Shown: positions 11,713 to 20,700 of the stretch, in pieces | Layout: the number at the start of each line of letters is the position of its first letter | How positions within the stretch are numbered: the first letter of the stretch is position 1 | Source of the DNA: a virus | DNA: 20,706 bases | Reading direction: 5' to 3' (one strand) | Virus record (IMG/VR): IMGVR_UViG_3300039106_000534 | Location: 1-20,706 of that record | Notes under the pieces: generated by a model | The model's input: the letters and a program-made list of their open reading frames with translations, nothing else | What the model was told of the DNA's origin: nothing | Databases searched by the model: none | Position numbers and translations under genes: made by a program

Positions 11713-12756
11713 TTACTTGTTGTTGTACTCTACAAGAGTTTTGAAACGATTGTAAACATTGTTACTTTCTGCAATGATCTTAGTTGCTTTAGACGGAGCT
11801 GAAGCAAGACCTTCGTTCATTTTAGTTTTTGGTTTCGGTGCTGGTTTTTTAGCTTTGCTGTTTACTGATTCAGATAAAGTAGCATAAATCAATTTAGCTT
11901 CGCGTACATTCTTAGCACGATCAAAAGTTTCAATAATTTTTACTTTTTGAGTTTCAGTCAATTCACCTTTTTTGAATAACTTGTTAACGAATAACAATTT
12001 AGCATTAAGTAAATTTACTTCATTCAATTTAGAACGTAAGAACTTAATCACATTGTAAGCTTCTTCAAGCTCTGCTTCTGTTTTCATGTTCTCTTCTTCT
12101 TCCTCTTCTTCTTCATCTTCTTCATTCAAAGCTGCGATGATTTCTTCTAAGTTGATTTCTTCGTCCTCTTCGTTTACAGCATCTGGATCTTCTGACTCTT
12201 CGATGTCGTCTGTTTCACCAGCCATGTTCTTCTCACCCCAATTGCGTTCTTCACCGTGTGGTTGTTCCACTTCAGTGTCATCTTCGCCTTCGAGTTCACG
12301 TAAGATTTCTTCCATATCCAAATCTTGTTCCTCTTCTTCGTCAGAATACTCTTCTTCTTCTTCAGGATACTCATCTTCCTCTTCTGGCATGTCATCTACT
12401 GGCATGTCCATAGAATCTTCCTCTTCTTCAGATTCGTCAGAATATTCTTCTTCTTCCATGTAGTTCTTCATACCTTCGTTGTCTGGATCTTCGTCATTTG
12501 TGATTCCAGCCATTCTTTTCATCTGCTCCACTTGCTCTTGGTCTTCCATAGAAGTTTTTTTATCTTCACCCTCACCATTCATACCCATCTCTTCTTTAAT
12601 CTTGTGAGATAGCATTGATTGTAGTTTTGGTGCAAAAGCTTCTTCCAAAGCGACCTTAGCATTAGCAAGAGCAGTTTCGCGTACGGCTTTAGCGTCAGCG
12701 ATTGCGTCTTTTAATAGTTTGTTCATTTTGTTTTTTGATTTTTTGACTACTGTCAT
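11713..12756 (-). CDS. gp22: Prohead core scaffold protein, gp22-like
   Basis: The protein sits directly before the major capsid gene, the place of T4 gp22, the main internal scaffold of the prohead. Residues 11-57 are a basic/helical segment (KLLKDAIADAKAVRETALAN). Residues 60-225 are extremely acidic, with long Glu/Asp runs. Residues 228-300 form a helical domain (EAYNVIKFLRSKLNEVNLLN, then LTETQKVKIIETFDRAKNVR) similar to the T4 gp22 C-terminal half with LTESQKEKV. The tail (303-347) is basic with KKPAPKPKTK. Several L-x-E sites (LNE, LRE, MNE) would allow destruction by gp21. A second ATG at 12726 (MNKLLKDA) sits behind an A-rich stretch like that of the capsid gene and may be the true start. 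The exact scaffold name rests on position and domain pattern. Confidence 0.78.
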   Translation of the reverse strand: MTVVKKSKNKMNKLLKDAIADAKAVRETALANAKVALEEAFAPKLQSMLSHKIKEEMGMNGEGEDKKTSMEDQEQVEQMKRMAGITNDEDPDNEGMKNYMEEEEYSDESEEEEDSMDMPVDDMPEEEDEYPEEEEEYSDEEEEQDLDMEEILRELEGEDDTEVEQPHGEERNWGEKNMAGETDDIEESEDPDAVNEEDEEINLEEIIAALNEEDEEEEEEEENMKTEAELEEAYNVIKFLRSKLNEVNLLNAKLLFVNKLFKKGELTETQKVKIIETFDRAKNVREAKLIYATLSESVNSKAKKPAPKPKTKMNEGLASAPSKATKIIAESNNVYNRFKTLVEYNNK

Positions 12757-17829: not shown

Positions 17830-19404
17830 TCAAAGAAGCCAATTAATATCTTCACTATTACCATCAGGCAAATGCATTTTATATGGATCATTTTGTATTG
17901 ATGGTCTGTTATATATAGATACTGTAGATTTTATATTTGCTACCGCCATTCTATTTATTTCAATACCAGCTTGTCTTAGTTTAAGTGCTGTATCTCTAAC
18001 CCACAATCCTTCACAAAAACTCATAATTAAATCGTCATTATAACCTGATGCTGCTTCTGCTCTTGCGTTTCTCCAAATAAAGACATAAAGCTCTTCTAAT
18101 AACCTCTTGCTTCTAATAATACAGCTTTTTTCACGTATATACAACTCCATCTTACTAATCGCAAGTGGTCTAGTTTTTTGACTCATTGTAAATCCTGCAA
18201 CCATGTCTGACTTGTTTGTTAAGTCATACCCCTTTGTTAAGAATCTGTCTGAATCCAATACATCGTTCTTGTAGGTATAGTATAGGTTTCTATAGTTCCT
18301 ATCAATAACTTGTTGTATTGTAGCCCATCCCACATTAGCATTCTCTATAACAAGCAATGCATCGTTGTATTCGGTTCCTACAGCTACTAACATGTTGCCA
18401 TAATCCTTTGTTCCAATTTGTCCTCTATACTCAGCAACTTGTCTGCAGGATTCAACATCAATAACATGAAATGCAGAATTGTCACTACCATCTCCACGAG
18501 CAACGTCAGCTGCAACAATATAGTTTTTTGTGTAATCTGGTATTTCCCAAACCCATAGATTTCCATCAAAGCCTCTTTTTTCAATTGGCTCTTGTGCATA
18601 GGTTTGCATGTAATATGTAATGAGTTCTGGTGATACTACTGTATTACCTGATGTGGAGAAGTCACAGTCACACTCTTGTGCTGCAAGTCTTATACCTAAT
18701 TCCTCATCTTGTCTGTCTCTCCAAGTTTGATCTCTATCAGGATGTACTTGCCAAGGTAGTCGTTTTGTTTTAAACTTGTTCTCTCCTGCTTCTGCTTTAA
18801 CCCAAGTCTTATGAAAAAAGTTACCAGTTCCATTTGGAGTCGATAATATGATACCTTGACCACCAGTATTTAGTGTTTGTTGTAGTGATGCCCAAAGTTC
18901 TTCTGCTCCTTCAACGAAAGCAGCTTCGTCAATAACTACCATTGATAACGCTTCTGAACGTCCTGATGTTCCTGTACTTGCTACTGCTTTGATCTGAGAT
19001 CCGTTTGATAATCTCATTGATAGCTTGTTACTCTCTGTTGTTTTTAGTTTAAGCCAACTTGGTAGATTATCAAACATTACCCTAACCTTTGTTACAAGGT
19101 TTTTAGATGTGTTTTGATCTATCGCTACTACTAATACGTTCTTATCGCTGTGGAATAGAATCATCCACAAAGCATATCCTCCAACTAAAGTTGATATACC
19201 TAACTGACGAGATTTTAGGATAACCATCCTATCATTCTCTTGAAAATCTTCTAAAGTATCTTCTTGGTATGGGTATAAATGAAATGGAACTTTTCCTTTA
19301 GTAGGATGTTGAATCATACAATACTTCTTCATGAAGTATGATGCTGATTTAGCGCATTTAACGTACTCTTCCTTGATTATGTCTTTAAGACTCTTCTCAG
19401 CCAT
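17830..19404 (-). CDS. terL: Large terminase subunit (packaging ATPase/nuclease), gp17-like
   Basis: This is the motor that cuts concatemeric DNA and pumps it through the portal. ATPase domain: Walker A-type SRQLGIST (65-72), where T4 has SRQLGKTT, Walker B VVIDEAAF (156-163, Asp159, Glu160) and coupling motif STPNG (188-192). RNase H-like nuclease domain: AADVARGDGSD (298-308, Asp300), VIENAN (352-357, Glu354) and YNDDLIMS (455-462, Asp457/458), the three acidic positions expected in T4 gp17. At 524 aa it is shorter than T4 gp17 (610), mainly at the N-terminus. The usual P-loop Lys is Ile here, a variant I recall in many phage terminases. It follows the spanin-like gene by 15 nt; no small terminase gene is recognisable beside it. 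Confidence 0.93.
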   Translation of the reverse strand: MAEKSLKDIIKEEYVKCAKSASYFMKKYCMIQHPTKGKVPFHLYPYQEDTLEDFQENDRMVILKSRQLGISTLVGGYALWMILFHSDKNVLVVAIDQNTSKNLVTKVRVMFDNLPSWLKLKTTESNKLSMRLSNGSQIKAVASTGTSGRSEALSMVVIDEAAFVEGAEELWASLQQTLNTGGQGIILSTPNGTGNFFHKTWVKAEAGENKFKTKRLPWQVHPDRDQTWRDRQDEELGIRLAAQECDCDFSTSGNTVVSPELITYYMQTYAQEPIEKRGFDGNLWVWEIPDYTKNYIVAADVARGDGSDNSAFHVIDVESCRQVAEYRGQIGTKDYGNMLVAVGTEYNDALLVIENANVGWATIQQVIDRNYRNLYYTYKNDVLDSDRFLTKGYDLTNKSDMVAGFTMSQKTRPLAISKMELYIREKSCIIRSKRLLEELYVFIWRNARAEAASGYNDDLIMSFCEGLWVRDTALKLRQAGIEINRMAVANIKSTVSIYNRPSIQNDPYKMHLPDGNSEDINWLL

Positions 19405-19419
19405 ATGTAACCAGTTTTA

Positions 19420-19839
19420 TTAGCGAACTAGCAAACTTGTTGCTACTCCTGCTATTGCTATTCCGGTAACTATTTTAATTACCCTTTTTTGTTTTTTCTT
19501 GAGCTTTTTATTATCTTGCTCAAGTCCTGTAACGATGCTTTTGTACTCTATTTCTTTATCCTTGTACAAATCAATTTGTGCTGTGTAATTTGCTACTTTA
19601 GCTACATACGCGTTGATTAGTCTCTGATTAGTAGAGTTTTTTTCTTCTAGCTGTTCAACTAATACTTTTGTCTCAGTCAGTTCGGTTCGTGCTGAATCAC
19701 CTCTTACTAAATCTTTTGCTATCTTTTTTACAACACTATCTGGAAAGCAGTGCATTTGTGTTTTACTTGTACCTGTCTGTGAAAAAGTTGCCAAGCTCAT
19801 CATGAGTAGCATTATCAATAGCTTTAATCTTGTTGCCAT
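19420..19839 (-). CDS. Putative spanin component with N-terminal signal and C-terminal TM (139 aa)
   Basis: Residues 1-20 (MATRLKLLIMLLMMSLATFS) look like a signal peptide: two basic residues, a hydrophobic core, then AxFS before Gln. The body (about 33-118) is periplasmic-type coiled coil, rich in Glu/Lys/Thr (TETKVLVEQLEEKNSTNQRL). KKKQKR (114-119) precedes a hydrophobic C-terminal segment VIKIVTGIAIAGVATSLLV (120-138). I recall the CFPDSVVKKIAKDLVRGDSA type of N-terminal block from proteins of Bacteroidota phages. Signal, coiled coil and C-terminal anchor is the layout of unimolecular spanins, though a lipobox is not evident (Cys31 is not in a lipobox). The start overlaps the preceding gene by 77 nt in another frame, as in Rz/Rz1 pairs. 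Lysis function is inferred. Confidence 0.6.
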   Translation of the reverse strand: MATRLKLLIMLLMMSLATFSQTGTSKTQMHCFPDSVVKKIAKDLVRGDSARTELTETKVLVEQLEEKNSTNQRLINAYVAKVANYTAQIDLYKDKEIEYKSIVTGLEQDNKKLKKKQKRVIKIVTGIAIAGVATSLLVR

Positions 19840-20116
19840 ATTGGTTTTGAATTTGTGTTATTTTGTGTTTTGTTGAGTCAATTTTTTGATCAGCAATAAT
19901 CAAGTCGTTTTTATAACACTTAATTAAACTATCTTGAACAAGTTGTTCTTTTTCTAGTGCATTAATTAAGGTTGTTAAGCTATCGATTTGACTCTTTTCT
20001 TTAGCATACGGATCTACATCAGATCCTCTTGTAGACATAAACAAGTAACCACTCAACACAAGTATGGTGATGAATATGGTAAGCAACAATCCTGTTGTTA
20101 ATTTGCTTATTGTCAT
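19763..20116 (-). CDS. Putative inner-membrane spanin (Rz-like, 117 aa)
   Basis: One N-terminal membrane anchor is visible (residues about 8-27, TGLLLTIFITILVLSGYLFM), with a short Lys-containing cytoplasmic start (MTISK). It is followed by a periplasmic coiled coil rich in Gln, Lys, Asp and Leu (about 38-95). The C-terminus ends ATHDELGNFFTDRYK. This is the layout of an Rz-type i-spanin, which spans the periplasm from the inner membrane and meets an outer-membrane partner during lysis. The C-terminal 26 codons overlap the start of the 139-aa gene in a different frame. No holin or endolysin is seen in the window, and both genes sit directly before the terminase, so the lysis assignment is a topology-based inference. 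An unrelated membrane-tethered coiled-coil protein remains possible. Confidence 0.6.
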   Translation of the reverse strand: MTISKLTTGLLLTIFITILVLSGYLFMSTRGSDVDPYAKEKSQIDSLTTLINALEKEQLVQDSLIKCYKNDLIIADQKIDSTKHKITQIQNQYGNKIKAIDNATHDELGNFFTDRYK

Positions 20117-20128
20117 AACTGTGTTTTA

Positions 20129-20365
20129 CTAGTTCTCGTCTTTAGCTTTGTAGTTGTTATCTACATAGTCAAAGAATTCTTTTTTCTTTGCTGGATCTTT
20201 TAAATCTGCTGGGGAGCTGATTTTAAATTTATCCATAGCTTTTTTAAAGAACTCTTGATAAGCTGTATCTTCTTTAAGACGCTTTACGATCATTTTAGTT
20301 TTGTTTTCGTTTAAAGCTTTTTTAACTTCTTCACGAATTGCTTTTCTTAGATTGGCCGTTTTCAT
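20129..20365 (-). CDS. Small basic protein (78 aa), unknown, head-module type
   Basis: The protein begins MKTANLRKAIREEVKKALNE and is helical and highly charged. Its second half, EFFKKAMDKFKISSPADLKD then KKKEFFDYVDNNYKAKDEN, looks like a small defined domain with a Ser-Pro-Ala-Asp-Leu turn that I associate with small proteins of T4-like environmental phages, without known function. The KKALNE element (residues 15-20) also occurs in the portal C-terminus and fits the L-x-E protease rule. The start overlaps the stop of the upstream gene by 1 nt (TAATG), so the two are coupled. It precedes the spanin-like pair by 12 nt. A structural or core role is only inferred. Confidence 0.6.
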   Translation of the reverse strand: MKTANLRKAIREEVKKALNENKTKMIVKRLKEDTAYQEFFKKAMDKFKISSPADLKDPAKKKEFFDYVDNNYKAKDEN

Positions 20366-20700
20366 TAGTGTACAATGTTTGTTCTGATTGTTTTCAGAAT
20401 GTTTAATTTCTGCTCGCTTGAGGCAGTAAACTGCTCAATTACAGTAGATAGCATTTCTACCAACTCTTCTGTACCTACCTCAGCACCACTATCTTTCAGC
20501 TTCCTGATGTAGTACCTAGTTATTCCTTCTAATTTTGGATTCAATCCTTGCTCTTCTTCAGGCTCTTCTTCAGGTTCAGGTTGCTCTTCTTGTTCCGGAG
20601 CTTCTTGTTCCTCTTCAGCTTCTAACAACTTAACAATTTCTTTTCTAAGCATTAAGCGTAGAGCGTTTTCGTTTATTTTAGATTTTTTAGTAGTTTTCAT
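20365..20700 (-). CDS. Acidic small protein (111 aa), unknown; 5' end near window edge
   Basis: From ATG at 20700 the protein has a basic helical start (MKTTKKSKINENALRLMLRK), an LLEAEEE step, a Pro/Glu-rich acidic linker (about 28-51, EQEEQPEPEEEPEEEQG) and a helical C-terminal part (about 55-111, ITRYYIRKLKDSGAEVGTEE). The layout of basic helix, L-x-E, acidic linker and compact domain resembles the 145-aa protein between gp21 and the scaffold. Only six bases lie upstream and they contain no in-frame stop, so a start outside the window cannot be excluded, though MKTTKKSK is a natural start. The stop overlaps the next start by 1 nt. No family is recognised. Confidence 0.6.
   Translation of the reverse strand: MKTTKKSKINENALRLMLRKEIVKLLEAEEEQEAPEQEEQPEPEEEPEEEQGLNPKLEGITRYYIRKLKDSGAEVGTEELVEMLSTVIEQFTASSEQKLNILKTIRTNIVH

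Follow-up and report, generated by a model that had tools for sequence, protein, structure and literature searches.

A spanin-like gene pair encoded in overlapping frames in T4-like myoviruses of Bacteroidota

In two-component spanins of the Rz/Rz1 class, an i-spanin (a type II inner-membrane protein with a periplasmic domain) is matched with an o-spanin (an outer-membrane lipoprotein with a lipobox), and the two genes are embedded, overlapped or adjacent. In lambda, Rz and Rz1 contact each other through their two C-termini, the ends opposite their membrane anchors. The lambda Rz-Rz1 complex is described in the accessible part of PMC5295617. In the accessible text of PMC6139136 spanins are defined by the lipobox and other topologies are not considered; the same text places the separated spanin genes of B40-8 about 1 kb apart, and counts Croceibacter phage P2559S, Bacteroides phage B124-14 and Rhodothermus phage RM378 among the spanin-less phages. 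According to excerpts of PMC12596118, o-spanin candidates without a lipid box were removed from a 2025 data set, and Bacteroidetes phages use unimolecular spanins exclusively. Partial texts of three further papers annotate "unimolecular spanins" in Cellulophaga phages Nekkels and Ingeline (PMC8776804), mention spanin candidates of Porphyromonas phages that carry signal peptides (PMC10367356) and mention spanins for crAss-like phages (PMC10136315).

Here, we analyse two overlapping genes in a 20.7 kb IMG/VR record (the window, by which we mean the whole stretch of DNA analysed), whose minus strand carries T4-like myovirus head genes (terminase, portal, protease, major capsid protein and a PhoH-like gene). 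As in the overlapped two-component spanins (the LysB/LysC type of phage P2, within the Rz/Rz1 class), the upstream protein (P1) has an N-terminal transmembrane segment and a coiled-coil periplasmic domain, the genes overlap, the downstream protein (P2) is predicted to be exported and begins inside the upstream gene in another frame, and some relatives of the pair lie in a lysis-gene neighbourhood. Unlike in those systems, the second protein exceeds the first in length, its N-terminus carries a signal-peptidase-I (Q-rule) signal where a lipobox would be expected, and its C-terminal end is hydrophobic; no sequence homology was found for P2. The unimolecular spanins (T1 gp11 type) share with P2 an export signal at the N-terminus and a transmembrane segment at the C-terminus, but P2 is without a lipobox and always paired with P1. 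T4 itself offers PseT.3/PseT.2, in which PseT.3 also has 117 residues and an N-terminal transmembrane segment, in a T4-like myovirus whose lysis genes are unclustered; however, PseT.2 has the lipobox LVGC, the T4 genes overlap by only 4 nt, and hhalign of our pair against PseT.3 and PseT.2 gave no homology (probability 0.3% and 0.5%). We found no published description of the pair in open-licence PMC papers.

Gene order, overlap and conservation

P1 (117 aa) is encoded at 19763-20116 and P2 (139 aa) at 19420-19839, both on the minus strand. An earlier note on the window had described a 77-nt overlap in different frames, directly upstream of the terminase, and had read the DNA for the FFTDRYK tail of the first protein as also encoding the signal peptide of the second. 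These statements hold: at 19763-19839 (minus strand, 77 nt) the last 24 P1 codons and the stop codon lie within the P2 signal peptide region, the same DNA giving the P1 tail GNKIKAIDNATHDELGNFFTDRYK and the P2 signal peptide MATRLKLLIMLLMMSLATFSQ, and the codons for FFTDRYK also specify ATFSQTGTSK, the end of that signal peptide. A gap of 15 nt separates the P2 stop from the start, at 19404, of the T4-like terminase large subunit (17830-19404, minus strand; phrog_2, E=3.7e-46), which belongs to the context and not to the pair. Also part of the context is a 78-aa ORF directly upstream of P1 (20129-20365, minus strand), which matches phrog_28651 (unknown function, E=4.6e-5) and recurs in L002 and L003. 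Very acidic, repetitive E/D-rich proteins are encoded at 11713-12756 and 20365-20700, both on the minus strand; the former, whose gene has the protease and capsid genes on either side, is a possible scaffold.

Relatives were collected from viral contigs, using either protein and the corresponding profiles as queries, and from phage records by tblastn. This gave at least 48 loci including the window, from at least 47 records (L014 and L045 lie on one contig), with repeats omitted (L001, L011, L012, L040 and L042); among the matches listed there are 41 distinct pairs, whose P2 sequences form 22 identity clusters at 70% and nine at 50%. Although each locus was found through one partner only, both proteins are present in all 48 loci listed, and the relatives keep the overlap together with both topologies throughout (48/48). 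Its length ranges from 71 to 101 nt with an identical frame offset in every locus listed, 77 nt being the commonest value (28 of the 41 distinct pairs listed). At conserved P1 residues the frequency of an identical codon is 0.746 inside the overlap vs 0.565 outside, and at conserved P2 residues 0.687 vs 0.534, an excess in both frames, as would be predicted for selected dual coding.

The pair is shared by many related T4-like viruses of Bacteroidota. A tblastn search of phage records with the window P2 gave no match, and the same search with a distant member (L009) led to two named phages, immuto (an isolate, with Flavobacterium as host according to its record) and PAU, whose host is given as Sphingobacterium in the accessible part of PMC3738902. 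With P1 of the window, tblastn matched only two records of one Lactobacillus phage (E=5), which we took as chance. The bacterial genomes searched contained no confirmed relative of the pair, so no prophage was seen, and the pair is also absent from Croceibacter P2559S, Bacteroides B124-14 and Rhodothermus RM378, and so does not account for these three spanin-less phages.

Layout of the two proteins

The anatomy given in the earlier note, namely one N-terminal anchor followed by a coiled coil in the 117-aa protein, and a signal-like N-terminus, a coiled coil and a C-terminal membrane segment in the 139-aa protein, agrees with hydropathy, heptad periodicity and AlphaFold2 models. In P1 of the window, the N-terminal transmembrane segment covers approximately residues 6-27 (hydropathy peak 2.3 at 9-27), the model has helices at 5-29, 38-98 and 105-116, and the heptad (3.5-residue) periodicity exceeds that of shuffled sequences (p=0.004; p<0.05 in 38 of 38 P1s). 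A single N-terminal transmembrane segment, as expected of a type II i-spanin, is found in all 38 P1s with an ATG start (P1 of L017, L021 and L022, having no ATG start, was left out of the scoring), and the charge distribution points to an N-in orientation with the helix in the periplasm. The most conserved part is the C-terminal tail, ELxxFFTxRY(K). Judged by these predicted features, the layout of P1, with an N-terminal transmembrane segment and a heptad-periodic helix, is that of an inner-membrane spanin (Rz).

A profile search against spanin families, which had been proposed earlier, gave matches for some P1s and for no P2. Among 31 P1s, the commonest PHROG family is phrog_739, "Rz-like spanin" (nine at E<=0.01, best 1.9e-5); three P1s match phrog_214, also "Rz-like spanin" (E<=0.01), and three match phrog_8545, "superinfection exclusion Sie-like" (best 0.0012). 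Seven of ten chosen P1 members match phrog_739 at E<=0.01 over both the transmembrane segment and the coil; P1 of the window scores only E=0.86 against it. These matches can be taken as a hint, not as proof, of spanin identity for P1, given that unrelated coiled-coil families match P1s at similar E-values. Neither P1 nor P2 of the window has a weighty match in PHROGs or Pfam, and for 38 P2s NCBIfam and PHROGs returned scattered weak matches and no spanin family. A BFVD fold search with the P1 and P2 models gave nothing below E=0.5, an outcome to be expected for bare helices.

P2 of the window begins with a hydrophobic stretch, and glutamine 21 is invariant in all 41 distinct pairs listed, being one of only two invariant columns. 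According to the accessible part of PMC5837995, Bacteroidetes follow a Q-rule, in which cleavage by signal peptidase I leaves a glutamine at the new N-terminus, where it is converted to pyroglutamate; an invariant Q21 is as expected for such substrates, and it would be the mature N-terminus of P2. As annotated, immuto gp85 (L051:8155-8556, equivalent to MW353175 46087-46488) and PAU gp292 (L052:5287-5745) begin too far downstream and are without all or part of the signal peptide; upstream starts restore a Q-rule signal peptide. In the mature protein the region C-F-P...DLxRGDSA is conserved, with cysteine 31 absent from L039, L041, L051 and L052. The AlphaFold2 model has helices at 2-21, 34-46 and 48-138, the last running into the C-terminal hydrophobic segment, and heptad periodicity is again above shuffles (p=0.006 in the window; p<0.05 in 36 of 41 P2s). 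On the minus strand of G021 (L059), at position 2768, lies the gene of a far smaller protein laid out like P2: it has 90 residues, a Q-rule signal peptide, a helix-like middle and a C-terminal transmembrane segment.

The C-terminal hydrophobic segment (hydropathy peak 2.15 at 120-138 in the window) is present in 41 of 41 P2s, with 0-2 residues between it and the C-terminus, and in all of them it follows a stretch rich in lysine and arginine (4-7 in 12 residues, seven in the window). It is marginally hydrophobic and clearly less so than the P1 transmembrane segment: the median membrane-insertion energy is about -0.3, vs about -2.2 for P1, with +0.97 for P2 of the window, values that are based on an approximate hydrophobicity scale and position weight and serve for ranking only. 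Cleavage of P2 at Q21 would place the positive charges on the periplasmic side, against the positive-inside rule, so that the membrane placement of this segment is putative.

The second protein had been noted to have no clear lipobox, and this extends to all members listed: none was found in 48 P2 frames listed, nor in 49 P1 frames, from any ATG, GTG or TTG start, in a scan that recovered LVGC of T4 PseT.2 as a control. A sequencing or start-codon artefact masking a lipobox was rejected, given that all these starts were tried and that Q21 is invariant. Neither protein of the pair thus has the lipobox of an outer-membrane lipoprotein, as in an o-spanin. The "unimolecular-spanin topology" once attributed to P2 stands for the C-terminal segment (41/41) and falls for the lipobox that such spanins require, which occurs in no P2. 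It is on the lipoprotein that the pair falls outside the spanin class.

Genomic neighbourhoods

Among the 48 loci listed, the pair lies directly upstream of the terminase in 27, near an Amidase_2 gene (0.5-3.0 kb away) in 15, and upstream of a gp15-like tail-sheath stabiliser in four (L006, L007, L008 and L046; PF16724 with E=6.6e-6 in L007, the other three sharing the downstream start). In those Amidase_2 loci that were inspected, a sigma-70 gene and a multi-TM protein are also near the pair. In immuto, the order is a GH19-type endolysin (phrog_181, E=3e-63), a holin (gp81; phrog_199, E=3.1e-4), two genes of unknown function, P1 and P2, with the endolysin and holin 1-1.5 kb upstream of the pair. 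Endolysin genes are thus near the pair in 16 of the 48 loci listed (the 15 Amidase_2 loci and immuto). In the remaining 32 (the 27 pre-terminase loci including the window, the four pre-gp15 loci and PAU) no peptidoglycan hydrolase adjoining the pair was identified; the window itself has no identifiable holin or endolysin, and in PAU none of the eight neighbours, nor the next one searched, was identified as a lysis gene. In G021, a nearer relative of the window, an endolysin is encoded about 12 kb further on the same strand, among late genes; this genome also has a gene homologous to the holin gene of immuto (E=4.8e-50).

On a P2 tree with weak deep branches, in which immuto and PAU are long branches, the five contexts need four changes, the minimum, and with at least four changes of context the pair travels as a unit, independent of the terminase.

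Two further observations concern these neighbourhoods. Near the amidase, between the sigma-70 gene and a protein with 3-4 transmembrane segments, lies a gene for an 89-95 aa protein with an N-terminal transmembrane segment followed by a K-[GS]-C motif (L009:7967-8254; L030:3541-3822; L041:3573-3842). Its family is found in 14 loci listed, with a match at 6.8e-12 between the P1 profile and the copy in L031 (3222-3563), and the protein is possibly a second lysis component. In L043 and L044 (6632-8724) the terminase frame stops after about 282 aa, approximately 1.2 kb before the portal gene, possibly by an intron, an intein or a frameshift.

Possible role of the pair and rival explanations

The proposal of a spanin-like pair is supported, at the level of sequence, by the overlap and topologies (48/48), the nearby endolysins (16/48 listed) and the phrog_739 matches (9 of 31 P1s). 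None of the refuting outcomes named in the earlier note was observed: among the homologues listed none has been assigned a role outside lysis, and none of the pairs listed has a canonical lipoprotein spanin nearby. We consider it reasonably probable that P1 and P2 together form a spanin-like lysis complex in T4-like myoviruses of Bacteroidota, each protein supplying one half, with expression late in infection; the lysis function, the P1-P2 binding and the late timing are inferred. In such a complex, P1 would be the i-spanin and thereby the inner-membrane half (N-in, with one transmembrane segment, a helix into the periplasm and the conserved FFTxRY tip). P2 would take the place of the lipoprotein: after export by Sec, signal peptidase I would cut it just ahead of the invariant glutamine, and with the C-terminal hydrophobic segment as its anchor, P2 would have its conserved N-terminal region at the end far from the membrane. 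The conserved parts, at the C-terminus of P1 and the N-terminus of P2, would thus both be distant from the anchors, as are the meeting ends of Rz and Rz1, and the free ends of the two coiled rods could pair. Once the endolysin had cleared the peptidoglycan, the complex would disrupt or fuse the outer membrane.

A more specific form of this proposal, to which we give somewhat less than an even chance, is a two-component spanin in which no lipoprotein takes part, P2 being a mirror-image o-spanin. The C-terminal tail helix would anchor P2 in place of an N-terminal lipid and would drive the disruption of the Bacteroidota outer membrane, and the pyroglutamate-capped N-terminal region would meet the FFTxRY tip of P1, with the tail either in the outer membrane or in the inner one as a type I protein. 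The inner membrane seems the more likely location for the P2 C-terminus; the outer membrane would give true bridging.

Alternatively, P1 could be an ordinary i-spanin whose o-spanin is a distant lipoprotein, P2 being an accessory (clamp, regulator or antiholin-like protein). Lipoproteins are indeed encoded away from the pair in the three large genomes checked (gp30, of 75 aa, and gp149 in immuto; five candidates each in G021 and G017) and one could be a separated o-spanin, an arrangement recorded for B40-8 in the accessible text of PMC6139136, so that a distant canonical o-spanin remains a candidate partner. Yet the overlapping partner of P1 is P2, which is no lipoprotein, in all 48 loci listed; the 800 nt around each of the 48 pairs listed contain no lipoprotein-like ORF with an ATG start; and in immuto over 25 kb separates the lipoproteins from the pair, gp30 having only a borderline match in G021 (E=0.019). 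We regard this explanation as unlikely.

An envelope role outside lysis, for example in superinfection exclusion or as a packaging adaptor at the membrane, with expression alongside the late genes, would fit the 27 loci in which the terminase adjoins the pair and the Sie-like phrog_8545 matches of three P1s. We judge it quite improbable, since the pair is away from the terminase, with its partner retained, in 21 of the 48 loci listed and beside endolysins in 16. Moreover, a pairing in overlapping frames is unusual for Sie genes.

A holin/antiholin-type pair comparable to T4 T and RI, with P1 as a single-TM holin with a periplasmic domain and P2 as a periplasmic regulator, is very improbable. 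T and RI have broadly the layout of P1 (one N-terminal transmembrane segment and a periplasmic domain), but RI is unlike P2, which has a long helix and a C-terminal transmembrane segment; immuto has a separate holin beside its endolysin, G021 encodes a homologue of that holin, and P1 scores favour Rz-like families over T-like holins. A small-terminase role was rejected, since both proteins carry export or membrane signals.

Returning to the spanin-like complex, it is the location of the P2 tail that decides whether P1 and P2 would bridge the periplasm, like Rz/Rz1, or act from the inner membrane by pushing against the outer one. Spanin searches rely on the lipobox, and this conserved pair would pass neither of the filters set out in the accessible part of PMC12596118. 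If the lipoprotein-free mechanism is true, the disruption of the outer membrane needs no lipid anchor, and phage immuto, being named, isolated and a carrier of the pair, provides a system in which this can be tested.
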